Source of the DNA: Herbidospora galbida
GTDB lineage: Bacteria; Actinomycetota; Actinomycetes; Streptosporangiales; Streptosporangiaceae
NCBI RefSeq assembly: GCF_005233835.1
Contig: NZ_SZQA01000004.1
Coordinates: 124,001-188,000, forward strand
Reading direction: 5' to 3'
Length of the DNA stretch: 64,000 nt
Shown: positions 8,279 through 56,304 of the stretch, piece by piece
Layout of the letters: every line of letters starts with the position of its first letter
Numbering within the stretch: the stretch's first letter is position 1
Made by a program: the position numbers and the translations under genes
The notes under the pieces: generated by a model
What the model was told of the DNA's origin: nothing
The model's input: the letters and a program-made list of their open reading frames with translations, nothing else
Databases searched by the model: none

Positions 8279-9739
8279 ATGGTGACGGGCACCGCCACCC
8301 GGCCCCGGATCCGCCACAACGACTATTCGCCGCTGTCGCCGCCGGAGGCCGGTCACTGGACGCCGAGCCTGCCGGTCAGCGTGGTCATCCCCGCCCACGG
8401 CAACCAGCCGCTCGTCGACCTCACCCTGGCCGCCCTGTCGGCGCAGACCTATCCCGCCCATCTGACCGAGGTCGTCGTGGTCGACGACGGCAGCCTGCCG
8501 CCGCTGCGGTTGCCGAAGATCCGGCCGGAGAACACCCGGATCATCCGCTCGGGGCCCGGCGGCTGGGGGCCCGCGTTCGCGCTGAACGCCGGGATCGCCG
8601 CCAGCGAGGGCACGGTCGTCCAGCGGCTCGACGCCGACATGGTCGTCTACCGCGACCATCTCGAACGGCTGCTGCGCTGGCATCACCTGACCGACTATCT
8701 GGTCACGATCGGCGCCAAGGTCTTCGTCGAGCCGCCCGCGCTCACCCCCGAGCAGATCGTCGAGGCGGTGGCCCGCGACCGGCTCGGCGAGCTGATCGAC
8801 CTGTCGCAGGCGACGCCGAGCAGCACCGAGCGCACCATTCTGCGGCTCGACGGCATGAAGAAGAGCCGCAACCCCTACCACGTGGTGACCGGCCCGACCC
8901 TGTCGCTGCACCGGACCCTGCTCAAGGCGGTCGGCGGTCTCGACGCCGAGGTGCACCGGGGCGAGGACACCGAGTTCGCCTACCGGCTGGCCCAGGGCGG
9001 CGCGGTGTTCGTGCCCGACCTGTCGGCGCGGGCCGTCCACATGGGGGTGCCGGCCCAGAAGCGCAACCGGGCGGCCACCGTGAAGGCCGTGGAGCCCTAC
9101 CACGCGCAGCGCATCCCGCTCCGCCGCGACCTGCGCAAACAGCGCGGGCGTACGTGGCACACACCGTACATAGAGGTGGTGTTCGACGTGTCGAAGGCGA
9201 GTGAGCGGGAGGTCCGCGACGCCGTCGAGTCGGCGCTGACCGGCTCGATCACCGACGTGCGGGTGCTGCTGACCGCCCCGTGGTCGTCGGTGAAGACGGG
9301 GCGCGGCGAGGCCATGGCGGGTCAGGAGTTCGAGCTGCGCCTGATCAGCGAGAGCATGCGCGGCGACCCCCGGGTCCACCTGGCCGAACGGGCGCCGGCG
9401 ACGGCCTTCCCGGTCCCGTTCCGCTACCGGGGATCGGTGCACGCGCCGCCGGCCCCCGAGACCCTCGAGCGCATGACACGGACGATGACAGACGGGCGGC
9501 TGGGGGTCCTGGTGACCGAATCGCCGGCCGGGACCGAGGCCGTCATGGAACGCACCGAGGCGGTTTCGCGCGCTTTGTTGCTGGCGCGTCCAGGCGAAAC
9601 TCCACACGATGTCATCCGCCAGACACACGGGGTCAGGCGGACCTCCCCCGCGAACTTCTGGCCCCGCCCGGATCCCGGCTCCGACGTGCCTCAGGAGAAG
9701 CGGCGCGGGCTAGGGTTGTTTCGCCGCCGCACGTCATGA
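8279..9739 (+). CDS. GT2-family glycosyltransferase, paralogue 1
   Basis: A 486-residue cytosolic protein with a GT-A fold: VSVVIPAHGN at 33-42, the nucleotide-binding VVVDDGS (67-72), the metal-binding RLDADM (116-121) and a later GEDTEFAYRL acidic pair typical of the catalytic base region. A second domain of about 200 residues follows (VEVVFDVSKASEREVRDAVESAL). An N-terminal IRHNDYS motif recurs in the genes at 10306 and 13652 (ARIRHNDWS, ARVPRNDYG), so the three are paralogues. The ATG at 8279 has GAAGGAG at good spacing; an upstream in-frame TTG at 8222 does not. Donor and acceptor sugars are unknown. First gene of the plus-strand glycan operon. Confidence 0.88.
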   Translation: MVTGTATRPRIRHNDYSPLSPPEAGHWTPSLPVSVVIPAHGNQPLVDLTLAALSAQTYPAHLTEVVVVDDGSLPPLRLPKIRPENTRIIRSGPGGWGPAFALNAGIAASEGTVVQRLDADMVVYRDHLERLLRWHHLTDYLVTIGAKVFVEPPALTPEQIVEAVARDRLGELIDLSQATPSSTERTILRLDGMKKSRNPYHVVTGPTLSLHRTLLKAVGGLDAEVHRGEDTEFAYRLAQGGAVFVPDLSARAVHMGVPAQKRNRAATVKAVEPYHAQRIPLRRDLRKQRGRTWHTPYIEVVFDVSKASEREVRDAVESALTGSITDVRVLLTAPWSSVKTGRGEAMAGQEFELRLISESMRGDPRVHLAERAPATAFPVPFRYRGSVHAPPAPETLERMTRTMTDGRLGVLVTESPAGTEAVMERTEAVSRALLLARPGETPHDVIRQTHGVRRTSPANFWPRPDPGSDVPQEKRRGLGLFRRRTS

Positions 9740-9844
9740 CATGTCGATTCGACGGCAAAATCTCCGTATTCCTGCTAACGAATCATGAGAGATCTTCCAA
9801 TAGAATCCCGATCCATTCCTTGTTGACACGGAGGCTGACAAAAG

Positions 9845-10309
9845 ATGCCCACGCTACGCCGTCTGGCGATGCTCGGCGCAGCAGCCGGAACGGTCGTGCT
9901 GGCCGCCCTCGCCGCCCTCGTCCTGATGGGCGCGCTTCCCGTGGTCGACGCCCTGGTGCTGGTGTTGCTGGGCGGGTGCCTGGCCGCGCTCGCGCTGCTG
10001 CTGTTCAGCGTGCGGCGGCTCGACGGCAAGACCCAGCGGATCGACACCCGCGTGAAGAAGCTCGAGACCAACCTCGCCCGGGTCACCGACACGCTGGGCA
10101 CGGTCTCCGATGAGCTGGCGGGCGCCTCCCGGCTGCTGGCCGAGGGCGCGGCCCGCCGCGACGACGACCTGCGCGCGGTGCTGGCCGCCCTCGGCGAAGA
10201 CCGCGTCAACGCGATGTTCCTGCGCAACGAGGTCGAGGCCGAGATCAAGGAGATCCGCCGCATCACCGGGGCGCCGCCCCGGGTGAGGACCGATGTGGGC
10301 GAGCGTTGA
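9845..10309 (+). CDS. Small membrane-anchored coiled-coil protein
   Basis: A 154-residue protein. Two adjacent hydrophobic segments (about 7-30 and 34-56) are followed by a charged, heptad-like region (about 60-140; RRLDGKTQRIDTRVKKLETNL) predicted to be a cytosolic coiled coil. I recognise no family. Its last 4 bp overlap the TTG start of the next glycosyltransferase, so the two are probably made in step. GGAGG precedes its ATG. Because the glycosyltransferases of this operon also have coiled-coil tails, it may be a membrane scaffold for them (inference). Confidence 0.8.
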   Translation: MPTLRRLAMLGAAAGTVVLAALAALVLMGALPVVDALVLVLLGGCLAALALLLFSVRRLDGKTQRIDTRVKKLETNLARVTDTLGTVSDELAGASRLLAEGAARRDDDLRAVLAALGEDRVNAMFLRNEVEAEIKEIRRITGAPPRVRTDVGER

Positions 10310-11832
10310 CGGCGCGGATCAGGCACAACGACTGGAGCTCCCTGCGCCCGGCACCGCTGGGCGCCTGGACCCCGCGCCTGTCCGTCAGCGTCGTCATCCC
10401 GGCCTACCAGTGTCAGGACGCACTTGACCGCACGCTCGCCGCGCTCGCCGCGCAGAGCTACCCGGCCGACCTGACCGAGGTCGTCGTCGCCGACGACGGC
10501 AGCACGCCCGCGCTGACGCTCCCGCCGCTGGCGCCCCACCAGACCAGGATCGTCCGGGTGCCCGCCGGTTCGTGGGGGCGCGGCGCCGCGCGGCAGGCCG
10601 GGGCCTCGGCCGCCTCCGGCGACGTGATCCACTGGCTCGACGCCGACATGCTGCTCGACCGCGAGCACATCGAGGCCCACATGCGCTGGCACCACCTGGC
10701 CGCATACGTGGTCGTGCACGGCACGATCAGGTTCGTCTCCGCCGAGCAGCCCTCCCCCGCCCACGTCTACGCCGAGGTCGCCGCCGGGCGGTCGGCCAAC
10801 CTGTTCCCGGGGGCGGACGTCCACCCTCATGTGTGGCTGGAGAAGACCCTCGCCGAGACGCGGCACCTGCGCGACGCGCGGTCGAACCCGTCGCGGCTCC
10901 ACTCGGGCGCGACCACCTCGGTGCGGGCGGCCATGCTGGCGCGGGCGGGCGGCGTCGACGTGACCATGAACATGGGCGAGGACACCGAGCTCGGCTACCG
11001 GCTGACCCAGGCCGGGGCCGTGTTCATCCCCGACGCCGAAGCGCTGAGCTGGCACGTCGGCAAGTCGACGGTGATGCTCCGGGAGAAGGAGGTGCACCGG
11101 CACAACTGGACCCTGTTCGCCGACCGCATCCCCGATCTCCGCTGGCTGCGCGCCCATCCGCGGCGGGTCTACTCGGTCCCGTACGTCGAGGTGGTCGTCG
11201 CCGCCACCACCTACGAGGAGACCAGGGGAACCGTCGACAGCGCCCTGGCCCAGACGATCCACGACCTCTCGGTCACGATCGAGGGCCCGTGGGACGAGCT
11301 GCCCACCGGCCGCCGGGCCTCGCTCGACGAGCCGATGCTCGACCTGCGGCTGCTCGGCAACCTCTACGCCGGCGAACCCCGCGTCAACCGGGCGGTGCAG
11401 GCCCCTTACCGGCTGACCCTCCCGGCGGGCTGGTCGCTCGGCGCCGACAGCGTCGCCCGGCTGGTCAAGCTGGCCGAGAGCCAGGGGTACGGGCTGGTCT
11501 GCGCCGCCCTCGCCGAGACCCACGACGGCGTGGCGACGGCCCGGCTGGAGAAGACGGCCGCCTACAACCGGGCCCGGCTGTTCCCCGGGGAAGCCCCCGA
11601 CGACGTGGTCGACGAGCTGTTCGGCGCGCACTGGGTCGACGGGGCCGAGTTCGGCGTCGTCCCGCTGGAAGAGGCCGAGCCGCTCAAGGGCGACGCCCAG
11701 ACCTGGCGGGCGCTGGCCGAGAAGCACAAGGCCGAGGCGCGCAAGCACAGGGCCGAGGCCGAACGGTGGAAGGCGGAGGCCGAGAAGCTGGCCGCCCAGC
11801 CGCCGGCCAAGCGCCGATGGAGGGGCCGATGA
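10306..11832 (+). CDS. GT2-family glycosyltransferase, paralogue 2, with C-terminal coiled coil
   Basis: A 508-residue paralogue of the proteins at 8279 and 13652: IRHNDWS at the N-terminus, VSVVIPAYQC, VVADDGS, HWLDADML and NMGEDTELGYRL in the GT-A domain, then the shared second domain (VEVVVAATTYEETRGTVDSAL). It ends in about 50 residues of Ala/Glu/Lys/Arg heptads (RALAEKHKAEARKHRAEAER), a strong coiled coil absent from paralogue 1. The start is TTG inside the TTGA overlap with the preceding gene. Its stop overlaps the next ATG by 4 bp. Substrates unknown. Confidence 0.87.
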   Translation: MTARIRHNDWSSLRPAPLGAWTPRLSVSVVIPAYQCQDALDRTLAALAAQSYPADLTEVVVADDGSTPALTLPPLAPHQTRIVRVPAGSWGRGAARQAGASAASGDVIHWLDADMLLDREHIEAHMRWHHLAAYVVVHGTIRFVSAEQPSPAHVYAEVAAGRSANLFPGADVHPHVWLEKTLAETRHLRDARSNPSRLHSGATTSVRAAMLARAGGVDVTMNMGEDTELGYRLTQAGAVFIPDAEALSWHVGKSTVMLREKEVHRHNWTLFADRIPDLRWLRAHPRRVYSVPYVEVVVAATTYEETRGTVDSALAQTIHDLSVTIEGPWDELPTGRRASLDEPMLDLRLLGNLYAGEPRVNRAVQAPYRLTLPAGWSLGADSVARLVKLAESQGYGLVCAALAETHDGVATARLEKTAAYNRARLFPGEAPDDVVDELFGAHWVDGAEFGVVPLEEAEPLKGDAQTWRALAEKHKAEARKHRAEAERWKAEAEKLAAQPPAKRRWRGR

Positions 11833-13655
11833 CGACGTACACGATCGGCTTCGACGAGGGCGAGGGCGACCTCGACAGCGGACCGCACCTCGATCCCGAG
11901 TCCGAGGTCGCCGAGCTGACGGTGCTCGCCAAGACCCCCACCGACCTGCGCCGGGCGATGACTCTGCAGTCGACGCTGCCCAAGGCGTCGAAGGTGTCGG
12001 TGGTGGTCGCCGAGGCGCCCTACTGGTTCACCGCGCCGAACCCGTCGCTCACCCCGGCCCACCGGTGGCGGGCGCTGACCGAGGTCCGCACATATAAGAA
12101 GGGCGCCGGCTGGCAGGTCGACGTCACCTTCAGCGCCCCGACGCCCTCGGGCCGGGTGGTCACGGCCGTGGCCCGCGCGTTCTCCGGGAACCGGCTGGAG
12201 GCCATCGCCTCGCCGGTGCCGGTGGTGGCCGGTCCGGGCGCGGCCCACTGGCGGCCCGGCGACCCCAACGCCGCCGTCGCCGATCCGAAGGGCCCGATGC
12301 CGATCCGCATCGGGGCGCCCGCGGGCGACCTCGTGGTCCGCACCGACGCGTCGGCCCCCTGGGCCGGCGACGCCGTGACCGTCGACCGGCCGGCCTCGCC
12401 GAGCTGGGAGGAGATCGGGCGTCCCGGCGGCGAGAGGCTGCTGGCGGCCGGGCTGAGCGACCCCGCGCTGGTGCCGCCGGTCGACGACCGGTCGGTCAAC
12501 CCGATCGGGTTCGTCAGCGTGCCGACGCAGGGGGTCGGAGAGCTCACCGTCGTCGACGACGCCTGGGTGATCCGGTACGACGGCGCGGTGCTGACCCGGA
12601 TCGCGACGTCGGGCGCGGTGACCGTCATGGACGTCAACCGGGTCCGCAAGCTGCGCGGCGTCACGATCGACTGGCGGCGCGGCAGCACCCTCGGCACCAT
12701 GGGCCCGCTGACCGCCGTCAGGGTCGTGGCCGGGCTGGCCGCCGCCGGGGTGCCGCTGGTCTGCGACCACGTCCCGGTGTGGGCGGGGGCGCTCGGCCCC
12801 GGCCTGGTCGCCCTGCTCGGCGCCGCCCCCGAGGGCGTGCTCGACGACGACCTGACCCGCGAGGAGCACAGCATCCGGCTGCGGCGGCGCGCGCTGCGCG
12901 ACCACGGGGTGAAGGAGCGCTGGGCGCGGCTCGGCGCGGTCGGATCGTACCTGCCGACCACCTCGATCCTGCTGGCCACCCGGCGGCCCGACCAGGTCGC
13001 GTTCGCGCTCGAACAGGCCGGACGGCAGCGCGAGGCCGACCTCGAAGTGGTGCTGGCGCTGCACGGCGTGCCCCGCGAGCATCCCGGCGTCGCGGCGGCC
13101 ATCGAGAAGTTCGACCGGCCGCTGACCGTCTACCAGGCGCCGCACGCCCAGGCCTTCGGGTCGGTGCTGAACGCCGCCGCCGAACGCGCCTCCGGGTCGA
13201 TGCTGCTGAAGATGGACGACGACGACTGGTACGGCCCCGACTTCCTGGCCGACCTGCTGCTCGCCCACTCCTACAGCGGCGCCGACGTGATGGGCACCTC
13301 GCCGGAGTTCGTCTATCTCGCGGCCATCGACGTGACCGTCCACCACCAGCAGATCACCGAGCAGGTCACCAACTTCATCGCCGGCGGGACGATCCTGGCC
13401 ACCCGCTCGGCCTTCGACGCGGTGGGCGGCTTCCGCCCGCTGCCCCGATCGGTCGACACCCAGTTCCAGCACGCGGTCCAGGCCGCGGGGGGAACCATCT
13501 ACCGAGGTCACGGCCTCGGCTACATCCTGCGGCGGGGCAAGGCCACCGAGCACACCTGGCGGGAGCCGATCGGCACCTTCCTCAAACGCAACAAGCGGCA
13601 GTGGCGCGGGTTCCGGCCCAACGCCCTGATGGAGCTCACGGGAGGCAGGTCATGA
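11829..13655 (+). CDS. Two-domain protein: unknown N-terminal domain plus GT2-like C-terminal domain
   Basis: A 608-residue protein. Residues 1 to about 370 match no family I recognise; they contain beta-rich stretches (YTIGFDEGEGDLDSG, PTPSGRVVTAVARAF) and a segment with a hydrophobic helix (AVRVVAGLAAAGVPLVCD). The C-terminal part is a GT-A glycosyltransferase: SILLATRRPDQVAFALEQAG, DLEVVLALHG, and the metal site LLKMDDDDWYGPDF. It sits in the operon with 4-bp ATGA overlaps on both sides. The cellular role is probably building the same glycan as the neighbouring enzymes. Confidence 0.82.
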   Translation: MTTYTIGFDEGEGDLDSGPHLDPESEVAELTVLAKTPTDLRRAMTLQSTLPKASKVSVVVAEAPYWFTAPNPSLTPAHRWRALTEVRTYKKGAGWQVDVTFSAPTPSGRVVTAVARAFSGNRLEAIASPVPVVAGPGAAHWRPGDPNAAVADPKGPMPIRIGAPAGDLVVRTDASAPWAGDAVTVDRPASPSWEEIGRPGGERLLAAGLSDPALVPPVDDRSVNPIGFVSVPTQGVGELTVVDDAWVIRYDGAVLTRIATSGAVTVMDVNRVRKLRGVTIDWRRGSTLGTMGPLTAVRVVAGLAAAGVPLVCDHVPVWAGALGPGLVALLGAAPEGVLDDDLTREEHSIRLRRRALRDHGVKERWARLGAVGSYLPTTSILLATRRPDQVAFALEQAGRQREADLEVVLALHGVPREHPGVAAAIEKFDRPLTVYQAPHAQAFGSVLNAAAERASGSMLLKMDDDDWYGPDFLADLLLAHSYSGADVMGTSPEFVYLAAIDVTVHHQQITEQVTNFIAGGTILATRSAFDAVGGFRPLPRSVDTQFQHAVQAAGGTIYRGHGLGYILRRGKATEHTWREPIGTFLKRNKRQWRGFRPNALMELTGGRS

Positions 13656-15313
13656 CGGCTCGCGTACCCCGCAACGACTACGGCGTGCTGGTGCCGCCGT
13701 GTCCCGATTCCTGGCAACCCGGCAAGACCGTGTCGATCGTCATCCCGGCCCGCGACTGCCAGCGGAAACTCGACCTGACGCTGGCCGCGCTGGCCGTGCA
13801 GGACTACCCGGCCCACCTCATGGAGGTGATCGTCGTCGACGACGGCGGGCCGCTCACGGTGCCGCCGGGGGTGCGCCTGGTGCCCAACGAGGGCTGGGGC
13901 ATCGCGTGGGCGATCCGCACCGGGTTCGGCTACGCCACCGGCGAGGTCGTGCTGCGGCTCGACGCCGACGTGGTGCCCTCGCGCGGCCACGTCAGCGCCC
14001 ACATGCGGTGGCACCACGCGGCCGACTACCTGGTGGTCCTGGGGTCGCTCCGGTTCACCGCGTCCGAGACCGGCCTGCCGCCGGTGTGGGCGCTGCGCGA
14101 GGCCGTCCGTGACGGGCGGGAGGCCGCGCTGTTCGAGGAGTGCGAGGGCCACACCTGGTGGCACCAGCTCGTCGACGAGCACGACGGCCTCCGGCGGGCC
14201 CCCAGCCCGCTGCTGCACCGCGTCCACGTCGGGGCGAGCGTCTCCCAGCACCACGACCTGTGGACGCAGGCCGGCGGCATCGACACCTCGCTCGTGCTGG
14301 CCGAGGACACCGACCTCGGCTACCGGCTCACCCAGGCGGGCGCGGTGTTCGTGCCCGAACTCGAGGCGCCGGCCTGGCATCTCGGCCGGTCGACTTTAAT
14401 GCGGCGCCAGACCGAGGTGAAGCGCTACAACGCGCCGTTCGTCGCCGACCGCATCCCCTACCGGCGGTTCCTGCGCACCGAGGGCGGACGCCAGTGGCTG
14501 GTGCCCTACGTCGACGTGGTCATCGACACCCGGGGCGCGAGCTATGAGCACGTCCGCGGCGGCGCCGACGCGGCGCTGGTCAGCACGCTGCCCGACGTAC
14601 GGGTGACGTTGGTGGGCGAATGGTCGCAGCTGCACGACGGCCGGCGCTCCGCCTTCGACGACCCCCGGCTCGACGCCCGGCTGATCAAGGGCGGTTACGA
14701 GCACGACGGCCGGGTGAGGCTCGTCGAAGACCCCGGTCCGACGTCGGCGCCGGCCCCGTTCCGGCTGGTCTGCCCGCCCGGCTGGACGATCGCCGCCCAG
14801 ACCCTGGCCACCCTCATCGAGAAGGCCGACGCGACCGACCTCGGGCTGCTGCACATCGCGCTGACCGAGACCCACGAGGGCATCGTCACCGCCCGGCTCG
14901 AACGCACCGCCGCCATCGCCCGCGCCCGCCACGTCATCAAGGACGGCGAGGAGTTCGACGACGTCGTCCACGAGCTCTACGGCTCCGAATGGCTCGACGG
15001 CGAGGAGCTCGGGTTCGCCCCGGTCGACACCGGCGTCAAGCCGCCCATCGTGAGCCGGAACACCGAGGCCGCCCACTGGCGGGCCCTGGCCATCGACCGT
15101 AAGATCGCCGCCGGACGGCTGGAGAAGCAGGTCCACGCACTGGAGCGGCAGGTCGCCGCCCTGGAGAAGAAGGCCGCCAAGGGCACCGCCGACACGGCGC
15201 GCTGGCAGGCGAAAGCGGAGAACTGGCGGGTGCAGACGGTGCGGTTGCAACGGCGCGGTGAGCGCACGGTGTTCAAGCGGGCGTTGCGCAAGGCCCGGCG
15301 GCTGCTGGGCTGA
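13652..15313 (+). CDS. GT2-family glycosyltransferase, paralogue 3, with C-terminal coiled coil
   Basis: A 553-residue third paralogue: ARVPRNDYGVL, VSIVIPARDC, VIVVDDGG, LRLDADVV, AEDTDLGYRL, the shared second domain (VDVVIDTRGASYEHVRGGADAAL), then about 90 residues of heptad-rich coiled coil (LEKQVHALERQVAALEKKA) and a basic tail. The ATG overlaps the preceding stop by 4 bp, with GGAGG upstream. It contains a TTA leucine codon at 14396-14398, rare at this GC content and, in Streptomyces, a target of bldA control. Its TGA shares one base with the next ATG. Confidence 0.87.
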   Translation: MTARVPRNDYGVLVPPCPDSWQPGKTVSIVIPARDCQRKLDLTLAALAVQDYPAHLMEVIVVDDGGPLTVPPGVRLVPNEGWGIAWAIRTGFGYATGEVVLRLDADVVPSRGHVSAHMRWHHAADYLVVLGSLRFTASETGLPPVWALREAVRDGREAALFEECEGHTWWHQLVDEHDGLRRAPSPLLHRVHVGASVSQHHDLWTQAGGIDTSLVLAEDTDLGYRLTQAGAVFVPELEAPAWHLGRSTLMRRQTEVKRYNAPFVADRIPYRRFLRTEGGRQWLVPYVDVVIDTRGASYEHVRGGADAALVSTLPDVRVTLVGEWSQLHDGRRSAFDDPRLDARLIKGGYEHDGRVRLVEDPGPTSAPAPFRLVCPPGWTIAAQTLATLIEKADATDLGLLHIALTETHEGIVTARLERTAAIARARHVIKDGEEFDDVVHELYGSEWLDGEELGFAPVDTGVKPPIVSRNTEAAHWRALAIDRKIAAGRLEKQVHALERQVAALEKKAAKGTADTARWQAKAENWRVQTVRLQRRGERTVFKRALRKARRLLG

Positions 15314-16767
15314 TGACCCTCACGGTGAGTCGCGGCCTCCCGGTGCGGGAGGCCGCTCGCGGTCATGGCCCATGGGTGGGCCTGATCACCGTGGTCGCGG
15401 CCGTCGGCTACACCCTCGTCGGCTACCTCGAACTGCGCGGCATACGGGCCGGGGTGCTCGACCTGGCCATCTTCGACCAGGGCGTGCGGAGCTACTCGGA
15501 GTTCCGGCTGCCCGAGTCGGTGACCAAGGAGTACCTCGACGGCTTCCACGACGAGGGGTTCTCGCTGCTCGGCGACCACTGGTCGCCGATCCTGGCGCTG
15601 CTCGCGCCGCTCTACTGGCTCAACGACGGCCCGTTATCGCTGCTCTTCGCGCAGGGGGTGCTGTTCGCGCTGGCGGCGCCGCCGCTGTGGCTGTTCACCC
15701 GCCGCCGCCTCGGCGCCGCGTCGGCCTACCTGGTCTCGGTCGCGTACGTCGTCTGCTGGCCGGTCGCCCAGGCCGTCGAGTTCGACTTCCACGAGGTGGC
15801 GTTCGCGCCGCCGCTGATCGCGTGGATGGTCGAGCGGTACGACGCCGGCCGGGTCCGCACCGCGCTGCTCATGGGCGGCCTGCTGCTGCTCACCAAAGAG
15901 GACATGGGCCTGGTGATCGCGGGGTTCGGCCTCTACCTGGCGGCCCGGGGCCGCTGGCGGAGCGGGCTCCTGCTGGTCGGCGGCGGGGTCGCGGCCGTGC
16001 TGGTGGCGACCAAGGTGCTCATCCCGTTCTTCGGCGGCCGCGACGGCTTCTACTGGCGCTACGAGGACCTCGGCGACGGCCCGTTCTCCGCGCTCGTCCA
16101 CGTGCTGACCCATCCGGTGCGGACGCTGGCCCTGCTCGGCACCCCACCCGACAAGCTGGTCACGGGCTGGCTGCTGCTGATGGTGCTCGGGGCGTGCCTG
16201 CTGTCACCGCTGGCCCTGCTGTCGCTGCCGCTGCTCGCCGAGCGCATGCTGTCGTCGTATCCCCACTGGTGGGGGGTGCCGTTCCACTACAACGCGTTCC
16301 TGGCGATCCCGCTGTTCCTGGCGGCCGTCGACGGGATCGCCCGGTTCGGGCCCCGGACACGGGTGACGTGGGCGGCCGGGGTGCTGGCGACCGGGCTGGT
16401 CACGGCGCCGCTGTTCGCGTACGGGACGATCGCGCGGACCGAACTCGGGCCCGAGCCGGCCTATGTGGCCGTCGCGCGCAGGGCGGTCGCGGCGGTCCCG
16501 CCGGGCCCGATGGTCGCGGCGGCGCTGCCGGTCGGGGCGAGCCTGACGGCCCGCAACCCGGTGATCCTCTGGGAGCCGGCGCCTGCCTACGAGAACCCGC
16601 CGTGGATCGTGGCCTTCACCCGCTGGAAGACGACCCCGTTCGACCGCGTCGAAGACCAGGTGGCCGAGGTGGAGCGGCTCCGCTCCACCGGATACCGGAC
16701 GGTCTTCGACGAGGGCGGCTTCGTCGTCCTCCACCGGCCCCAGGAAGCACCCACGCCCGTTTCATAA
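15313..16767 (+). CDS. DUF2079-family integral membrane protein
   Basis: A 484-residue polytopic membrane protein with about ten hydrophobic segments. It has DUF2079 hallmarks: the early DLAIFDQGVRSYSE segment, HDEGFSLLGDHWSPIL in the first loop, TKEDMGL in mid protein and SSYPHWWGVPFHYNA. The family resembles GT-C glycosyltransferases, with Asp/Glu in the first extracytoplasmic loop (family knowledge). It is the last gene of the tight operon, overlapping the previous stop by one base. It has a TTA codon at 15634-15636. It could transfer lipid-linked sugars outside the membrane to the glycan built by the cytosolic enzymes (inference). Confidence 0.88.
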   Translation: MTLTVSRGLPVREAARGHGPWVGLITVVAAVGYTLVGYLELRGIRAGVLDLAIFDQGVRSYSEFRLPESVTKEYLDGFHDEGFSLLGDHWSPILALLAPLYWLNDGPLSLLFAQGVLFALAAPPLWLFTRRRLGAASAYLVSVAYVVCWPVAQAVEFDFHEVAFAPPLIAWMVERYDAGRVRTALLMGGLLLLTKEDMGLVIAGFGLYLAARGRWRSGLLLVGGGVAAVLVATKVLIPFFGGRDGFYWRYEDLGDGPFSALVHVLTHPVRTLALLGTPPDKLVTGWLLLMVLGACLLSPLALLSLPLLAERMLSSYPHWWGVPFHYNAFLAIPLFLAAVDGIARFGPRTRVTWAAGVLATGLVTAPLFAYGTIARTELGPEPAYVAVARRAVAAVPPGPMVAAALPVGASLTARNPVILWEPAPAYENPPWIVAFTRWKTTPFDRVEDQVAEVERLRSTGYRTVFDEGGFVVLHRPQEAPTPVS

Positions 16768-16843: not shown

Positions 16844-19246
16844 ATGCTGGTCGAGAACAGGACGGACCGTACGGTCTGGCTCGGGCTGTACACCCTGCAG
16901 GACAGGGCCTACCTCGCCACCACCTTTCCGTGGGGCGCCCGCCAGAAGCTTCTGCCCCACCAGCGGAAGGAGTTCTCACCGGCGGCCGAGCGGCAGCAGG
17001 TGGTCTTCTGGAACACCGGCGCCCTCGGCGACATGCTGCACGTCCCGCGTTCGATGCGGACGACCCAGGTCTCGATCGACCAGGACGCCGACGGCTGCTT
17101 CATCTACAACCATCTCGGCGATCCCGCCCCGATGGACCGGATCGAGCACTTCGTCGTGCTGATGCTGGAGAACCGGTCGTTCGACAACCTGCTCGGCTGG
17201 CTCTACGACGACACCGACAACGTGCCGCCGCGCAACGTCCCGGCGCCGCCGGACGGCAAGCCCTACTTCCTGGGACTCAAGGAGAAGGCGTACTGGAACA
17301 CCGTCGCCGCCGGCGCACACGACACCGCTCCGGAGGAAGGCCGCACCTACGCGCGGAAGGGGGCGCGGACCGACACCACACCCGACCCGAACCCCAGCGA
17401 GATCTGCTGGTCGTTCGTGGAACAGATGTACGGCACCCCGATGCCCAGGGCGGGGCAGCAGCCCAACATGTGGGGTTTCCTGGCCAACTACGAAGCGCAC
17501 ACCCGGCCGCGGGACCGGTCGGTCGTCATGGACTGCTTCACGCCCGACCAGGTGCCGAACATGAGCACCCTCGCCAAGCAGTTCGCCGTCTGCGACCGCT
17601 GGTTCGGCTCGGCGCCCTGCGAGACCTGGCCCAACCGCTCGTTCCTGCACGCCGGTACGTCGTTCGGCCGGCTCAACAACTGTGACGCCCCCGACCAGGA
17701 GGACTGCGTACCGAACTTCTTCCCCTACGCCGGGAAGCGCACCGTCTTCGACGCTCTGGACGAACTGGGCATCCGCTGGCGTCTCTACCAGGACGCCGCC
17801 GTGCTCGGCACCCTGCTGAGCGCCCAGTTCTGGACGGTGCCGCAGAAGCTGAAACGGCAGGCCCACCACGCGATGTACATCGGGCCGGACCTCAAGCCGG
17901 GGTTCCGGATCCAGTTCCCGCCGGAGTACATCTTCGTCGAGCCGTCGTACTGGCTGGAGAACAACGACCAGCATCCGCCACACAAGGTCTCCAGCGGCGA
18001 CGCGCTGGTGGGCACGATCTACCGGGCGCTGTCGACCAGCCCCCGCTGGAACAGGATCCTGTTCGTCATCACCCACGACGAACACGGCGGCTGCTACGAC
18101 CACGTGCCCCCGCCCGCGGCCATGCCGCCCGACGGCTACGTGCCCCAGTTCTGCGTCGGGGAGATCAACCCCTTCCGGGTGTACGGGCCGAGGGTGCCGG
18201 CCATCCTGGTGTCGCCCTACATCGAGGCGGGCACCGTGTTCCGGGCGCCGGCCGAGGCGTGGCTCCGCAACGACGACGACAACAGCAAGCGGTTCCCGGC
18301 GAGCGGCGGCCTCACCGAGTTCTACGCCGACACCAACGAGCTGGTCTGCCCGCCCGGCCGCGTCGTCACCGGCATGGCCCTGCGCCGGAAGGCGCCTCCC
18401 GGATCGGAGGGCAACCGCGTCGCGCTGTCGCTGCAGCACTCCCGCCCCGACGGCTCCGATCCGCAGTGGCTGGAGAACGCCGACTGGAACGGCGAGTACG
18501 TACCCCAGCGGGGCGGCCTGGGCAGCTTCGTCGCCGACACCAACCCGCTGATCTGCCCGCCCGGCCGCGTCGTCACCGGTCTCGCCTTCCGCCAGAAGGC
18601 TCCTCCCGGCCACGACCCGTCGACCGGGAACCGCATCGCGCTGGCCCTGCGGCACTCCAAGCCCGACGGCTCCGACCCGCAGTGGCTGGAGAACCCCGAC
18701 TGGAACGGCAACCACGTGCCGGCGAACGGCGGCCTGGCCACCTTCGACGTGGACACCAACCCGCTGACCTGGCCGCCGGGGGCGATGCTCGGCGTGGCGC
18801 TGGGGCAGAAGGGCGCCAACCACCTGGCGCCCCAGGCGTTGACCGTGGGTGCCGAGTTCGACCACACGTCCATCCTCGCGTCGATCCGCGACTGGGTCGG
18901 CGCGCGGTCGGACCTGCTGGGCCCGAACGAACGCATCAGGCGGGCCCCGACGGTCTGGCCGGTGCTAACCCGGACCAAGCCCCGGACCGACACGCCGGTG
19001 CTGCCCGAACCGGTCGCCGCTCCGGCCGAGTTGAACGGCCACAAGCCCACTCCGCGCCAGATCGACCTCATGGCGCTGGCCGAGGGAGAGCGGACGGCCG
19101 TGGCCGAGGCCGCTCAGGCCAACGGCCGGGCTCCGGAGTGGTGGGAGCGGCGCATCGCGGAGGCCGCCCAGGAGACGGCCGCCGAACTCGGGGGCGCGGC
19201 CGACTCAGGCGACCTGCCCGATGAACTGACCGAAGGGATCGCTTAG
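16844..19246 (+). CDS. Phosphoesterase of the phospholipase C / acid phosphatase family with repeats inserted in the catalytic core
   Basis: An 800-residue protein. After an N-terminal beta-type domain (1-95) comes the alkaline-phosphatase-fold phosphoesterase domain: HFVVLMLENRSFDNLLG (102-118), PNMSTLAKQFAVCDRWFGS, and the metal site THDEHGGCYDHVPPP (410-424). After ILVSPYIEAGTVFRAP the domain is interrupted by two full and one partial copy of a 70-residue repeat (486-657) before resuming with GAEFDHTSILASI (669-681). No signal peptide or Tat motif is visible, unusual for this mostly exported family. The C-terminal 110 residues are Ala/Glu-rich. The start has GAGGG upstream. It follows the glycan operon by 76 bp and may be co-transcribed. 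Substrate unknown. Confidence 0.85.
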   Translation: MLVENRTDRTVWLGLYTLQDRAYLATTFPWGARQKLLPHQRKEFSPAAERQQVVFWNTGALGDMLHVPRSMRTTQVSIDQDADGCFIYNHLGDPAPMDRIEHFVVLMLENRSFDNLLGWLYDDTDNVPPRNVPAPPDGKPYFLGLKEKAYWNTVAAGAHDTAPEEGRTYARKGARTDTTPDPNPSEICWSFVEQMYGTPMPRAGQQPNMWGFLANYEAHTRPRDRSVVMDCFTPDQVPNMSTLAKQFAVCDRWFGSAPCETWPNRSFLHAGTSFGRLNNCDAPDQEDCVPNFFPYAGKRTVFDALDELGIRWRLYQDAAVLGTLLSAQFWTVPQKLKRQAHHAMYIGPDLKPGFRIQFPPEYIFVEPSYWLENNDQHPPHKVSSGDALVGTIYRALSTSPRWNRILFVITHDEHGGCYDHVPPPAAMPPDGYVPQFCVGEINPFRVYGPRVPAILVSPYIEAGTVFRAPAEAWLRNDDDNSKRFPASGGLTEFYADTNELVCPPGRVVTGMALRRKAPPGSEGNRVALSLQHSRPDGSDPQWLENADWNGEYVPQRGGLGSFVADTNPLICPPGRVVTGLAFRQKAPPGHDPSTGNRIALALRHSKPDGSDPQWLENPDWNGNHVPANGGLATFDVDTNPLTWPPGAMLGVALGQKGANHLAPQALTVGAEFDHTSILASIRDWVGARSDLLGPNERIRRAPTVWPVLTRTKPRTDTPVLPEPVAAPAELNGHKPTPRQIDLMALAEGERTAVAEAAQANGRAPEWWERRIAEAAQETAAELGGAADSGDLPDELTEGIA
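18299..18814 (+). repeat. Internal 70-residue repeats within the phosphoesterase gene
   Basis: Repeat 1 covers residues 486-556, repeat 2 557-628 and a truncated repeat 3 629-657. Each starts GGL.xFxxDTN, continues CPPGRVVTGxAxRxKAPPG (changed to WPPGAMLGVALGQKG in copy 3), and ends DGSDPQWLENxDWNGxxVP. Copies 1 and 2 are clearly homologous at both protein and DNA level. Such a unit could bind a ligand or glycan. Confidence 0.88.
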
Positions 19247-20076
19247 AACTCTTCCCAGGTCGACTTGTCGGGGACCGGGCGCGACTTGCCGCCGATGACG
19301 TCTTCCAGCGGACGCACCACCGTGCCGTGCTTCTTGCGCGAGTCGAGCCAGGTCAGGAACTCGTCGAGCAGCTTCTCGGTGGTGGAGTAGTCGCCGCACA
19401 CCCGGGCGCAGACCTTGTGGATCACCACCGGGAGCAGCCCCCCGCCGGCCCGTTCGGCCGCCGTGACCTGCTTCTTGAGGTCGTTCAGGGTGGTGTCGTG
19501 GTTGACCGAGCCGTAGGTCCGGACCGAGTAGAGCTGGGCGGGCCGCATCGACTCGACCGGGGCGCAGTAGTCGCACGAGCCGAGGGCCAGGCCGCCGACG
19601 GTGCGGGCGGCGTTGTAGCCGCAGAAGCGGGCGGCGTGCTGGGAGTCGCCGTTGTTGGCGCCGAAGGGGTAGGCGAACGTGGTGACCGGGAGCTTCAGCT
19701 TGAGGAGGGCGGCCCGGTCGGCGCAGATGTCGACCCGCTGGTCGATGGCGGTCAGGTCGGGCAGCCGCACGTGGTGGAGGGTGTGGCCGCCGATCTTGTG
19801 GCCCTGCCGGGCGAGGGCGCGGACCTGGCCGACGCTGAGTTTTCCCTTGGTGTTCAGGTCGCCGCTGTTGATGTAGAACGTTCCGCGAACACCGTGTGAA
19901 TTCAGGATTTTCGCGGCGGTGAGGTGGGTGGCGTCGCCGTCGTCGAAACCGAGCGCGACCACCGTCTTGACCTTGGCTTTCGGGCGAGCGGCCTGCGCGG
20001 GCGTGGTGACCAGCAGCATCGGAAGGAGCGTTCCCAACAGGACGCCCACTGCTCCTAACCGGAGCGAAGACCGCAT
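19243..20076 (-). CDS. Secreted polysaccharide deacetylase (NodB domain)
   Basis: A 277-residue protein with a Sec signal peptide (hydrophobic 8-25, cleavage after AQA near 29). The NodB core starts with the metal/catalytic motif ALGFDDGDATH (D45, D46) and has the second motif HTLHH (98-102), then FAYPFGANN. It should remove N-acetyl groups from an extracellular glycan or peptidoglycan. Four Cys residues in the second half (CGYNAAR, CDYC, KVCARVCGDY) may form disulfides. Its stop overlaps the phosphoesterase stop by 4 bp (convergent). It is the distal gene of a minus-strand run with the two GT-C proteins. Confidence 0.9.
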   Translation of the reverse strand: MRSSLRLGAVGVLLGTLLPMLLVTTPAQAARPKAKVKTVVALGFDDGDATHLTAAKILNSHGVRGTFYINSGDLNTKGKLSVGQVRALARQGHKIGGHTLHHVRLPDLTAIDQRVDICADRAALLKLKLPVTTFAYPFGANNGDSQHAARFCGYNAARTVGGLALGSCDYCAPVESMRPAQLYSVRTYGSVNHDTTLNDLKKQVTAAERAGGGLLPVVIHKVCARVCGDYSTTEKLLDEFLTWLDSRKKHGTVVRPLEDVIGGKSRPVPDKSTWEEF

Positions 20077-20172
20077 GACCGACTCCCGTCTTCAAGTGTG
20101 GTGGGGGAAGGTGACCAGGCTAGCGGCTATTGCCCCGGAAACCGGCTGCTAGACCCAATCGGTACACATGGA

Positions 20173-21576
20173 TCACTTGCGGCCGAACAGCACCAGAACG
20201 AGGCCCGGGGACCGGTCCGGTTCCCACGTCCGGAGCGGTTCGAAGCCGAGCACCCGGAGCGACCTGAGCTTGGCCGGGGCCACCCGGCCGAGGTCCTCGA
20301 CGCCCAGGGCGGGGTTGCCGCGCCAGACCGCCCACACCCGCGTGGCCTGGCTCAGCACGTGGTTGAGGTCGCCGCGTTCGACGAAGCCGAAGGTGCCGGG
20401 GACTCGGCTGGTGCCGCGCCGCAGCACGTCGGACGGGAAGCCGTCGGTCGTGCGGCGGTAGTAGAGGATGCCTTCACGCTGTGGGGCGGAGCCGTAGATC
20501 AGCACGTCGCCCGGCTGATAGGCGCGTTCGATGGTCTCGACGACGAACGGGTAGTCCTCGCGGCGGCCGTCCTGCGCGCGGTTGAGGGCGAGGTCGGGCA
20601 GCGCGACGATCCCGCCCACGAGCAGCAGCGCCAGCGCGGCGGGCGGCCGGACCCGCGCCAGGGCGAGCCCGGCCAGCAGGGCCAGGGCGGGCGCGGCGGC
20701 GAAGAAGTAGCGGTCGACGTACAGGGGGATGGTCACCCACGAGACGGCGAACAGCAGCAGCGGGGGCAGCAGCAGCCACGTCCAGAGCCCGCTCAGCCAC
20801 GGCTTGAGCGGCGTGCCCGACCCGGCCACGGCCGCGCCGATCAGCAGCAGCGCCAGCCCGCCCGACCCCGTCAGCGCGCCGGGCAGGCTCGTGACGGTCT
20901 TCCAGTCGGGCCGCTCGATCCAGCCCACCGCCTCGCTCTGGAGCGCGCCCAGCACGACCAGGCCCGCCCACGGCACCAGGCCGATCGCGGCGGGGATCAG
21001 GAACCTGCGCAGATCCCCGCTGCGCCAGGCCACCAGCAGCTGCGCCGGAAGCACGAGCACCGCCATCAGGTGGGTGCAGCCGAGAAAGAGCACGCTCAGC
21101 GTGTACGCCACCCACGGCCGCCGCCCGGTCTGGCCGATCGCCCGGTGCAGGGCCCAGAAGGAGAGCACGGCCGCCAGGGCGGCGAAGGCGTAGGGGCGGG
21201 CGTTCTGCCCGTGGTAGGAGGTGAACGGCAGCAGCAGGAACGCGACCGCGGCCCAGATCCCGGCCGTCCGGGAGCACAAGCGGCGGCCCAGGTCGGCCAG
21301 CAGCCCGGCGGTCACCCCGACGGCGAGGGCGGTCGGCAGCCGCAGCCACCACAGGTCGTCGCCGAACTCGGCCCAGAAGTGCATGACCGTGTAGTAGGGC
21401 AGGAAGTGGGCGTCGATGTTCTGGGCGAGCTGCCACAGGCCGCCGAGCGACCGGGTGATCGCGCTGTAGGTGGCCAGTTCGTCGTTCCACAGCGAGGGCG
21501 TGGAGATGCCCACGACCATCGCCGCCGTACCGACGGCGCCCGCCGAGAGGGGTATCGCGACGTCGGTCCGGTTCAT
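20173..21576 (-). CDS. GT-C-type membrane glycosyltransferase (mannosyltransferase-like)
   Basis: A 467-residue polytopic membrane protein with about eleven hydrophobic segments. The first extracytoplasmic loop has SLWNDELATY, the Asp-Glu motif of GT-C enzymes that use polyprenyl-phosphate sugars, followed by HFLPYYTVMHFW and YHGQNARPYA, as in the ArnT/PMT-like superfamily. The C-terminal 110 residues form a soluble domain. It starts 9 bp after the stop of the related gene at 21586-22929, so both are in one operon. Sugar and acceptor are unknown. Confidence 0.85.
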   Translation of the reverse strand: MNRTDVAIPLSAGAVGTAAMVVGISTPSLWNDELATYSAITRSLGGLWQLAQNIDAHFLPYYTVMHFWAEFGDDLWWLRLPTALAVGVTAGLLADLGRRLCSRTAGIWAAVAFLLLPFTSYHGQNARPYAFAALAAVLSFWALHRAIGQTGRRPWVAYTLSVLFLGCTHLMAVLVLPAQLLVAWRSGDLRRFLIPAAIGLVPWAGLVVLGALQSEAVGWIERPDWKTVTSLPGALTGSGGLALLLIGAAVAGSGTPLKPWLSGLWTWLLLPPLLLFAVSWVTIPLYVDRYFFAAAPALALLAGLALARVRPPAALALLLVGGIVALPDLALNRAQDGRREDYPFVVETIERAYQPGDVLIYGSAPQREGILYYRRTTDGFPSDVLRRGTSRVPGTFGFVERGDLNHVLSQATRVWAVWRGNPALGVEDLGRVAPAKLRSLRVLGFEPLRTWEPDRSPGLVLVLFGRK

Positions 21577-21585
21577 CGCAGCATC

Positions 21586-22929
21586 TTAGGGGTTCGGGCG
21601 GATCATGGTGATCCAGGTCGGTTTGCCGTTGCTACTGGCCAGGACGTGCCGGTCCCACTCTTCGGCGCCCTTCGGCGGCGTCTTCTGGCTGAGGGTGGCG
21701 ACGACGCCGGGAAGCCCTTGAGCCGCCTCGGCGACCGACTCCCCGCGCCGCACGATCCGGACGTCACACCCGGTCAGGAACTGGTGGGCCGGGTTGACGG
21801 AGGTCCCCACGAGGGTGCACGGCCGCGTGACCCCGGCGTCGATCATCTTCTGCACGAACGCGGCCTGGAACTGCCGGAGCGGATAGTCCTGCCCCTTCAC
21901 CCCCTGGAACGCCGTGAACTGGACGACCAGATAGGCGGCCAGCAGGACCGCGAACGGCGGCCGGAACCGCGACATCGTCGCGGCGGCCGGGATCATCAGC
22001 AGGGCGTAGGCCGGGAGCAGGAACCGGGGGGCGGCGTAGTCGACCAGGAACAGATAGGGCGCGGCCATCGCCAGCCCCGCCAGCAGCGGGACGGGATGCC
22101 GCCGGGCCGACACCAGCGCCAGCGCCGGGAGAGCGAGCCACCAGATCAGCAGGTAGGGCCTCTCCAGCGGGATGTCGCACGGGCGGCAGAAGGCGGGCCC
22201 GTTGGCGGCCTTGAACTCGTACCAGAACCCGGGCGCGGGCGCGATCCCGCCCTGCACCTCCCCCGCCGCCGCCCACCGCTGGAGCAGCGACCCGAAGCTC
22301 GTGTACGCCTCCACCACCCACGGCACCGACCCCACCACGGCCGCGACGAGGATGGTCGCGGCGGCGGCCCACCTCCGCCAGAGCAGCGCGGCCGGCCCGG
22401 CGACCACCCCCAGCCACAGGACGTCGCTCGGCCGCAGCATCGCCACCGAGGCGAACCCGGCCGCCAGGCCCGCATAGGCCCACCCGGACGGCGACTCCCT
22501 GACGACCAGCAGCGACCCGATCGCCAGCACCGCGCCGAAGGCGACGTAGAGGTTGGGCATGACCTGCGGGCCGTACCAGAGGGCCACCCAGAGCGTGGCG
22601 AACAGCCCGGCGGCCAGCACGAGCGCGGTCGGCTTGAGCAGCCTCGTCCACGGCAGGAACGCCAGGAACAGTCCCCCGGCCGCGAGGATCATCATCCACC
22701 AGCGGATCGCCACCGGATCGGTGGTGACCTGCACGATCGGCGCCACCAGCCAGGTCACGCCCCTCGCGCGGGGGGCCGAGAACATGGCGTCGGGCACCCC
22801 TGGTGCGACCTGGCTCGTGTAGACGACCTCGTCCCATTCGAGCGTCATGTCCGCCGGGACCAGCAGGGCCTGCAGCGCGAGATATCCCAGCGCGACCAGG
22901 CCGAGCAGGGGGACGGGACGGGCAAGCAT
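21586..22929 (-). CDS. GT-C-type membrane glycosyltransferase-like protein
   Basis: A 447-residue polytopic membrane protein. The first loop has ADMTLEWDEVVYTSQ (the Asp-Glu pair again), then repeated hydrophobic segments and a C-terminal soluble domain with two Cys (RPCTLVG, TGCDVRI). I chose the ATG at 22927-22929, with AAGG upstream, over a TTG twelve codons earlier. It is the first gene of the minus-strand glycan operon. The 52-bp gap to the divergent APH-like gene must hold both promoters. Probably adds sugars from a lipid carrier on the outer face (family inference). Confidence 0.8.
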   Translation of the reverse strand: MLARPVPLLGLVALGYLALQALLVPADMTLEWDEVVYTSQVAPGVPDAMFSAPRARGVTWLVAPIVQVTTDPVAIRWWMMILAAGGLFLAFLPWTRLLKPTALVLAAGLFATLWVALWYGPQVMPNLYVAFGAVLAIGSLLVVRESPSGWAYAGLAAGFASVAMLRPSDVLWLGVVAGPAALLWRRWAAAATILVAAVVGSVPWVVEAYTSFGSLLQRWAAAGEVQGGIAPAPGFWYEFKAANGPAFCRPCDIPLERPYLLIWWLALPALALVSARRHPVPLLAGLAMAAPYLFLVDYAAPRFLLPAYALLMIPAAATMSRFRPPFAVLLAAYLVVQFTAFQGVKGQDYPLRQFQAAFVQKMIDAGVTRPCTLVGTSVNPAHQFLTGCDVRIVRRGESVAEAAQGLPGVVATLSQKTPPKGAEEWDRHVLASSNGKPTWITMIRPNP

Positions 22930-22981
22930 CGTCTTACCTTGGCGTAAGCGCCGCAAGCTGCGCAAATGGCAAACTGTCCGG

Positions 22982-30248: not shown

Positions 30249-31073
30249 ATGAACCACAGCACGCTGGGCCTCCGGTACGCCGCCCGATCCGACGTCGGCC
30301 AGCGCCGCCCGGAGAACGAGGACGCGGCCTACGCCAGCCCCCGCCTGCTCGTCGTCGCCGACGGCATGGGCGGCCACAACTACGGCCAGGTGGCCAGCGC
30401 GACCGCGATCCGCGTGCTGTCCGGCGCGCACCTGGAAGGCGACCCCGTGGTCGCGCTCGAAGGCGCCATCCAGCAGGCGGCGCAGACCCTGAAGGGCATG
30501 GCCGACGCCAACCCGGCGCTCAACGGCATGGGCACCACCCTGACCGCGATGCTGTGGGACGGCAGCGGCTTCGCCCTGGCCCATGTGGGCGACTCGCGCG
30601 GCTACATGCTGCGCGACGGCGTGCTCTACCAGATCACCCACGACCACACGCTGGTGCAGTCGCTCGTCGACGACGGCCGGATGACCCCCGAGCAGGCGGC
30701 CGAGCACCCGCGCCGGTCGATGCTGATGCGGGCGCTGGAGAGCACCGGCAACGTGAGCCCGGACGTGTCGCACCGCGCCGCCTTCGCGGGCGACCGCTAC
30801 CTGCTGTGCTCCGACGGCCTGGCGGGCGTGGTCTCGCCCGAGACGCTGCACGAGTTGCTCACCTCCGTCGCCGACCTCGACCAGCTGGTCACGACCCTCG
30901 TCGACCTGGCCAACCGGGGCGGCGGCCCCGACAACATCACCTGTGTCGTGGCCGACGTCGTGGCGGGCGGGCACGGCGACGGTCACCCCATCATGGTCGG
31001 GTCGGCGTCGGCCGATCAAGAGCTAGATCAGGGCGAGGGGACCGGCGGGGACGTACCCCTCCAGACGAGCTGA
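30249..31073 (+). CDS. PP2C-family protein Ser/Thr phosphatase
   Basis: A 274-residue metal-dependent phosphatase: RSDVGQRRPENEDA (13-26), ADGMGGH (37-43), AHVGDSRGY, LLCSDGL and GGPDNIT, with all metal-binding Asp residues present. It has no membrane segment. I use the ATG at 30249; an in-frame start at 30216 is possible. It is divergent from the methylase across about 60 bp and is the natural partner of the nearby Ser/Thr kinase. The end overlaps the convergent glycosyltransferase gene by 51 bp. Confidence 0.93.
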   Translation: MNHSTLGLRYAARSDVGQRRPENEDAAYASPRLLVVADGMGGHNYGQVASATAIRVLSGAHLEGDPVVALEGAIQQAAQTLKGMADANPALNGMGTTLTAMLWDGSGFALAHVGDSRGYMLRDGVLYQITHDHTLVQSLVDDGRMTPEQAAEHPRRSMLMRALESTGNVSPDVSHRAAFAGDRYLLCSDGLAGVVSPETLHELLTSVADLDQLVTTLVDLANRGGGPDNITCVVADVVAGGHGDGHPIMVGSASADQELDQGEGTGGDVPLQTS

Positions 31074-46999: not shown

Positions 47000-49183
<2,184 letters not shown>

Positions 49184-49221
49184 GATTGGCCCCTTACCCC
49201 GCTCCTCAGCGGGCAGAAACG

Positions 49222-51333
<2,112 letters not shown>

Positions 51334-51381
51334 CGCGGGAACTCTCTTTGCCCGCATATCGCGAGTTAGTCCCACGGTCCG

Positions 51382-51398
51382 GGAAAACCTCGGTTTCC
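51382..51398. promoter_or_regulatory. Imperfect inverted repeat between glgX and the hydrolase gene
   Basis: GGAAAACC (51382-51389) and GGTTTCC (51392-51398) face each other across TC, and a further GGGAAACGG follows. It is central in a 117-bp divergent promoter region, so it could be an operator. No known binding-site family recognised. Confidence 0.3.
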
Positions 51399-51450
51399 TC
51401 GGGAAACGGACGCGTTACAAACCGGCAACAACCTGGCAGAACAATCTTGT

Positions 51451-53075: not shown

Positions 53076-53137
53076 GCGGTCCAGCCTCGCGGCTCCGGCT
53101 TGGCCGTTTCTTGCCGGGCACTTGGCCGTCGGACCGC

Positions 53138-56281: not shown

Positions 56282-56304
56282 TGGGGGATGCTACCGAAAA
56301 AGGG

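Follow-up and report, generated by a model that had tools for sequence, protein, structure and literature searches.

A short membrane coiled-coil protein in a glycosyltransferase cluster of Herbidospora galbida, compared with its methyltransferase-bearing relatives

The cluster and its enzymes

The window analysed here, a stretch of 64,000 nucleotides from Herbidospora galbida, carries at positions 8279-16767 a cluster of six genes, P1 to P6, all on the forward strand. Four of them encode glycosyltransferases of family GT2, the last encodes a multi-pass membrane protein, and the second, P2, encodes a membrane protein of 154 residues. Comparison with its homologues identifies P2 as the kept membrane anchor and coil of a membrane-bound coiled-coil methyltransferase. 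The original prediction, made from the letters of the window alone, had described six genes mostly overlapping by 1-4 bp; all are present and four of the five junctions overlap (by 4, 4, 4 and 1 bp from P2/P3 to P5/P6), the only gap being the 105 bp between P1 and P2. The features are as follows.

8279..9739, + strand: P1, GT2 glycosyltransferase of 486 amino acids; DAD at 118, EDT at 229; no coiled coil, basic C-terminal tip
9845..10309, + strand: P2, membrane protein of 154 amino acids; two membrane helices (by eye), then a coiled coil; member of the TM-coil-Methyltransf_24 family without the methyltransferase
10016..10306, + strand: coiled coil of P2, residues 58-154; conserved RR.DGK and LGEDR motifs; ratio of nonsynonymous to synonymous substitution (dN/dS) 0.14 in seven Herbidospora
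10306..11832, + strand: P3, GT2 glycosyltransferase of 508 amino acids; TTG start, predicted tandem GT-A architecture, helical tail
11692..11796, + strand: tail helix of P3, residues 463-497; from the AlphaFold2 model and the tails of orthologues
11829..13655, + strand: P4, large GT2 protein; C-terminal GT-A domain with a DDDD motif
12984..13448, + strand: Glycos_transf_2 match of P4 (Pfam), residues 384-538 of protein record P0004
13652..15313, + strand: P5, GT2 glycosyltransferase, paralogue of P3 and P1; long helical tail with a basic tip
15050..15310, + strand: coiled-coil tail of P5, residues 466-552 of protein record P0005; dN/dS 0.16, versus 0.31 for the remainder
15313..16767, + strand: P6, DUF2079 multi-pass membrane protein, at this place only in Herbidospora

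The records P0004 and P0005 begin two and one residues, respectively, after the real starts of P4 and P5.

Three related GT2 enzymes with an IRHNDYS-like N-terminus had been predicted, and P1, P3 and P5 answer to this description: all three match PF00535 (Pfam), their N-termini read by eye as a set of IRHNDYS, IRHNDWS and VPRNDYG, and within this genome P3 is 46% identical to P5 and 40% to P1. P4 matches PF00535 at its C-terminus. The D-x-D motif and acidic base of GT2 enzymes are found as DAD and EDT in P1, P3 and P5 and as DDD and VDT in P4; the GT-A fold was modelled for P3 and P4 only. The AlphaFold2 model of P3 (predicted local distance difference test score (pLDDT) 92.5, predicted template modelling score (pTM) 0.87) has its best match in the Protein Data Bank (PDB) in the K4 chondroitin polymerase 2z87 (E 1.9e-30, template modelling score 0.66 by query), and the best profile match is likewise 2z87 (E 9.6e-35, residues 26-362). 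Entries 2z86 and 2z87 we take to be KfoC, the chondroitin polymerase of E. coli K4, an enzyme with two consecutive GT-A domains. The likeness extends over both P3 domains, but identity is about 20%, the second domain of P3 has no D-x-D, a helical tail is added, and nothing points to chondroitin. The motifs of P3 (DAD at 112 and EDT at 225) lie in its first domain, and its second domain looks degenerate because it holds no D-x-D triplet. A single D-x-D is found in P1 and in P3, within the first domain of each, and the second D-x-D of P5 falls within its EDTD motif. P1, P3 and P5 thereby differ from a KfoC-like dual polymerase with two complete GT-A domains, and are predicted, from the P3 model and for P1 and P5 by homology, to be polymerase-type tandem GT-A enzymes with one intact and one apparently degenerate domain. 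Similarity of their GT2 domains to MftF (TIGR03965) and EpsD (NF041875) was also seen, but at scores well short of the curated cut-offs (58.8-77.9 bits versus 280, and 89-110 bits versus 370). The model of P4 is less confident (pLDDT 83.8); the 50 PDB matches listed gave no fold for its N-terminal region, each extending over some 250 columns at most, about the size of a GT-A domain. Many related loci (L019-L044, L046-L057 and others) have, between P1 and P2, a second, divergent pair of P3- and P4-like genes, which Herbidospora, Acrocarpospora and Microbispora oryzae lack.

Coiled coils were scored on a home-made heptad scale against shuffled sequences (300 for the window proteins, 100 for relatives). 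The predicted membrane protein with a coiled coil was borne out in P2, where no shuffle of residues 58-154 reached the heptad score (0/300); its helices were read from the sequence by eye. The further claim that two of the enzymes end in long coiled coils held for P5, whose tail was equalled by 9/300 shuffles, and only poorly for P3 (86/300), though the P3 tail is modelled as a single helix over residues 463-497 (AlphaFold2). The end of P1 was matched by 170/300 shuffles and has no coil. On these counts (0, 9 and 86 of 300), P2 of this species has a firm coil, P5 a moderate one and P3 a weak one. Among relatives, at most 5/100 shuffles were as good in 21 of 49 P3 tails, 63 of 76 tails of a diverged P3 class and 17 of 47 P5 tails. 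Conservation of the tails, whose absence the original prediction had named as one of two refuting outcomes, was found in other genera among the relatives listed, where P3 and P5 relatives keep a charged helical tail by eye and heptads can be picked out by eye in the tails of P3 orthologues. This comparison of tails covered up to 60 rows per class and, for P1, every second row to a maximum of 40.

P2 among its relatives

The larger family of P2 is built of membrane helices, a coiled coil and then a Methyltransf_24 domain, of which P2 has the N-terminal anchor and coil only. In two full-length relatives the domain (PF13578) was found at residues 224-338 (L066, E 8e-14) and 237-355 (L045, E 2e-11), and Pfam gave no kinase domain in either protein; the alignment with P2 extends over their first 150 or so residues and takes in the membrane helices and the RR.DGK and LGEDR motifs. 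With its firm heptad score, and with membrane helices that were read by eye and are conserved in relatives, the coiled coil of P2 is tied to the membrane. We name this group the TM-coil-Methyltransf_24 family, and P2 belongs to it by a homologous anchor and coil, often found beside a P4-type glycosyltransferase. The long form, in which the coil leads into the methyltransferase, occurs in Microtetraspora (M. fusca, for example), M. oryzae, Sphaerisporangium, Thermocatellispora and others, and the full-length L066 protein as query hit 76 of the 150 family genomes and 80 of the 296 class genomes in the sample, some of the matches covering the anchor and coil only or the methyltransferase only. 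The anchor and coil with the common motifs are kept in about 50 loci of several genera. A classification of 80 P2 rows by motif gave 53 short and 27 long forms; one row classed as short (L068) matches the methyltransferase part and is in neither of the trees described below.

At nine loci of other genera or families the neighbours were partly scanned, and sugar or glycosyltransferase genes were seen at six (L109, L112-L115, L117): a UDP-GlcNAc 2-epimerase gene near the methyltransferase in L109 and L114, PF13524 in L109, a UDP-sugar dehydrogenase gene in L112 and L115, a dTDP-sugar isomerase gene in L113 and a GT2 gene in L117. Such neighbourhoods of the long form hint at surface polysaccharides. 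Six loci have the module at a second site, in the order full-length P2, P4, P3 (L059, L066, L067, L070, L075, L079), which in L066 lies near genes for fructose-bisphosphate aldolase and adenylosuccinate synthetase. A relative of the methyltransferase is also kept in eight genomes of 1.3-1.5 Mb from one other family, f25 (G173, G208, G222, G235, G246, G284, G319, G327), in frames of about 250-290 codons that match the catalytic half only.

The methyltransferase is missing, and the anchor and coil stand beside the same enzymes, in the P2-holding loci of Herbidospora, Acrocarpospora, Nonomuraea and Planobispora; in Streptosporangium six of seven P2 loci are short (L020, L027, L028, L029, L031, L032) and one is long (L067). 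For loss of the METHYLTRANSFERASE, a tree of 64 P4 proteins encoded beside P2 (50 short, 14 long) needs three changes, at least two of which the starred branches make unavoidable; one clade uniting all short forms is rejected (approximately unbiased test, p-AU 0.00234). In one 12-row clade (support 99), Herbidospora and Acrocarpospora, which are short, group with Microtetraspora and M. oryzae, which are long. This was a quick tree with support only from the approximate likelihood ratio test of the Shimodaira-Hasegawa type (SH-aLRT), for which the tool warned of long branches (L123, L105, L106, L121, L122, L089), and its change counts do not separate loss from regain. On the P4 sequences, then, the short form had more than one origin, or else a reversal took place; repeated loss is our reading because other families have the long form as well and because the anchor and coil of Microtetraspora and M. 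oryzae resemble the type of their neighbours at the locus. A first tree had left out 18 of the 80 P2 loci (by hand, for stops or for want of a nearby P4); the final one regained L018, L058, L070, L075 and L079 after cutting at the stop, giving 64 rows, and lost three earlier rows, L110 and, apparently through tighter filtering of starts, L044 and L046. The possibility that P4 is broken in Acrocarpospora was considered and set aside, the in-frame stops of L018 and L058 being tblastn alignments that overran the natural stop.

In 24 of 25 sampled short-form genomes no match to this methyltransferase was found elsewhere at E 1e-5, the exception being G095. The H. galbida genome holds six other Methyltransf_24 matches above the family cut-off, one of them (on contig C84) beside other GT2 matches; none of the six lies on the contig of the cluster, and none matched the P2-family methyltransferase at E 1e-5. 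The region on C84 (about 47900-56300) contains several GT2 matches and the Methyltransf_24 match in a frame of 661 codons.

As a product of the methyltransferase we considered 3-O-methylgalactose, presumably the madurose that is the diagnostic sugar of the family. Streptosporangium roseum has madurose (PMC3035251), yet six of the seven Streptosporangium P2 loci are short, and this candidate was set aside; S. roseum itself lies outside these loci. The open-licence literature yielded no study of madurose biosynthesis, as judged by titles and the opening lines of abstracts.

P2 as a candidate recruiting hub

Coiled-coil terminators that recruit polymerases have been described for Gram-negative O antigens (PMC3482155, PMC11231755). 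There, WbdD recruits WbdA to the membrane via its C-terminal region and caps the chain (PMC3482155), and proteins of this class are described as membrane-associated scaffolds whose coil carries the terminator at its distal end (PMC11231755). The P2 family resembles the WbdD-WbdA system of E. coli O9a and Klebsiella O3 in architecture, with a membrane coiled coil, a distal methyltransferase and polymerising glycosyltransferases. However, its polarity is reversed, the membrane helices being N-terminal and the methyltransferase C-terminal; P2 has two membrane helices (by eye) where WbdD has an amphipathic helix; and P2 is without the methyltransferase catalytic domain that is present in its full-length relatives. 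P2 was not classed as a WbdD because this domain is absent and no Wzt_C (PF14524), the partner in WbdD systems, was found in its own genome, where Wzm and the ATPase part of Wzt were not searched for. By analogy, it may act like the recruiting half of a WbdD. No such system in actinobacteria was found in the open-licence literature, and the titles and opening abstract lines of PMC12419801 and PMC11127046 describe none.

The reading that we put first, tentatively and at not quite an even chance, is that P2 is a WbdD-like membrane coiled-coil hub recruiting glycosyltransferases, here without its methyltransferase. P2 would gather peripheral GT2 enzymes, chiefly P3, P4 and P5, at the cytoplasmic face, where they would act on a lipid-linked glycan; the P3 and P5 tails may attach to the P2 coil, to one another, to the membrane via their basic tips, or to several of these. 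In the full-length relatives, the methyltransferase at the far end of the coil would add a cap or decoration to the chain as it grows, in the manner of WbdD on the O9a antigen. In Herbidospora that activity is lost from P2, which would leave an assembly hub without a built-in terminator.

Several lines of evidence are consistent with such a hub. P2 is present in all 50 loci with a P5 orthologue and in all 49 with a P3 orthologue, among 99 loci that were fetched by likeness to P3 or P2, so that the predicted co-inheritance of the small membrane protein with the glycosyltransferase genes was upheld within that set. Across 150 family genomes P4 lies within 8 kb of 43 of 45 P2-like places and of 38 of 56 places bearing the methyltransferase (the P4 placement count covers 79 of the 80 P4-bearing genomes tallied, with P6 entered as 59 places). 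Selection, measured as dN/dS by pairwise counting without a significance test in seven Herbidospora (six for P6), is stronger on the P2 coil (0.14) than on its membrane part (0.37), and the P5 tail (0.16) is more constrained than the rest of P5 (residues 1-465, 0.31); both coil and tail have lower values than the catalytic parts of P3 and P5. The GT2 part of P4 gave 0.07, P6 0.28 and the neighbouring PALP-family gene, here named thrC from its gene setting, 0.04. The gene set is real, conserved and under selection; retention of the rod-like part of P2 suggests that it aids in holding the enzymes together.

Other results weigh against the hub. The P3 tail in the window is a weak coil by its shuffle count, is no more constrained than the rest of P3 (dN/dS 0.27 versus 0.26 for residues 1-455) and shows no excess co-divergence with the P2 coil (partial r 0.03, p 0.32). 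In this partial correlation, made over 42 loci, the P2 coil does co-diverge with the P5 tail (0.31, 0/2000 permutations), but it does so too with controls outside the coils (P3 catalytic part 0.34, 0/2000; P5 catalytic part 0.19, p 0.003), and the signal between P2 coil and P5 tail is therefore unspecific; between the P3 and P5 tails the value is -0.18. Of the 56 places bearing the methyltransferase, 18 lack a P4 within 8 kb; among the 79 genomes with P4, 16 show no match to P2, and a further 12 genomes carry P2 or its long form but no P4. By these counts the glycosyltransferase family reaches beyond P2, whereas its P3 and P5 types travel with P2. At three of the nine scanned loci of other genera or families (L104, L107, L108) no sugar gene was seen among the neighbours scanned. 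Lastly, all 19 fetched loci without P2 hold a diverged P3-class glycosyltransferase with a coiled tail. Docking of the enzymes on P2, as originally proposed, is plausible, with indirect support and this one contrary result from the P2-less loci.

These 19 loci also lend weight to a serious, though less probable, alternative, in which the tails oligomerise their own enzyme or pair glycosyltransferases, the basic tip holds the enzyme on the acidic membrane, and P2 acts separately in the pathway as an oligomeric membrane protein. In 15 of the 19 the tail carries a net charge of at least +3 in its last 20 residues. Charge at this level, found in 9-12% of other 20-mers, is frequent in P5 (49/50), in P3-like proteins (94/127) and in P1 (42/70), which has no coil and tends to a basic tip all the same among the rows listed; it was seen in 21 of 75 P4 and in none of six P6 proteins. 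The P3-like total divides into 69 of 78 others and 25 of 49 P3 orthologues, however, so that only half of the latter have the tip that this alternative calls for, and it leaves unexplained why the P2 coil outlived its methyltransferase beside the same glycosyltransferases and why P3 and P5 orthologues were not seen without P2.

It is improbable that P2 serves a methyltransferase supplied in trans, with termination by methylation persisting. The six other Methyltransf_24 matches in the genome, including the one beside GT2 matches on C84, leave room for methylation of this kind, but their absence from the contig of the cluster and their failure to match the P2-family methyltransferase at 1e-5 argue against it. 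We regard as very unlikely the view that P2 is what remains of a chain-terminating methyltransferase since lost, and now does little or nothing: the catalytic domain is gone and the genome gives no match to this methyltransferase at E 1e-5, yet an anchor and coil with the same motifs persist in about 50 loci of several genera, with a coil dN/dS of 0.14. The final alternative is the assembly line of the original prediction, in which P2 would support the ordered synthesis of the chain and the DUF2079 membrane enzyme P6 would receive the product. That P6 is a DUF2079 protein was correctly foreseen (PF09852, 5e-55, 187.8 bits versus a cut-off of 28.2), and it lies on the same strand with a 1 bp overlap with P5; but the ordered hand-off is scarcely credible when P6 is in the cluster in only six of 99 loci and only five of 59 P6-like places lie within 15 kb of P4, all of them Herbidospora. 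The remaining cluster genes are kept far more widely, DUF2079 relatives occur in 80 of the 150 family genomes, and one Herbidospora P6 (G149) is on another contig, the cluster there sitting at a contig end.

Genomic setting and implications

Herbidospora is a genus of soil bacteria, and the host genome measures 8.3 Mb. The nearest named loci are those of six Herbidospora species, with P3 identities of 88-96%. The cluster neighbours rho, a GHMP-kinase gene (named thrB, likewise from its gene setting) and the PALP-family gene (Pfam assignments), from which P1 diverges; a promoter scan gave nothing above chance. Beyond P6, a gene at 16844-19246 (+) encodes a phospholipase C-like phosphoesterase (PF04185) whose catalytic part is followed by three repeats of some 70 residues, similar to one another, which read by eye as TN.L.CPPGRVVTG.A...KAPPG...PDGSDPQWLEN.DWN; it is present in only three Herbidospora loci (L013, L014, L016) among 78 relatives. 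On the opposite strand just beyond the cluster, at 19243-22965 (-), lie a polysaccharide deacetylase gene (PF01522) and two more genes, one of which has a PMT_2 match just above the cut-off and a mannosyltransferase match far below it. A large protein is encoded at 31023-32999 (-); its gene group occurs in 27 loci, the window counted, and most members are distantly P4-like, with PF13641 below cut-off.

Taken at its widest, the comparison would describe an actinobacterial architecture like that of WbdD, with reversed polarity and two membrane helices, whose terminator was repeatedly lost in several Streptosporangiaceae lineages while the hub and the polymerising enzymes were kept; we consider this broader proposal possible, though somewhat doubtful. 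If true, nature would here have separated scaffold from terminator, and the glycan would be expected to carry no methyl cap and to have its length controlled differently. It would also provide a Gram-positive counterpart across a whole family, in which the catalytic end is kept or absent at the same locus, so that the part that organises chain synthesis and the part that stops it could be tested apart.

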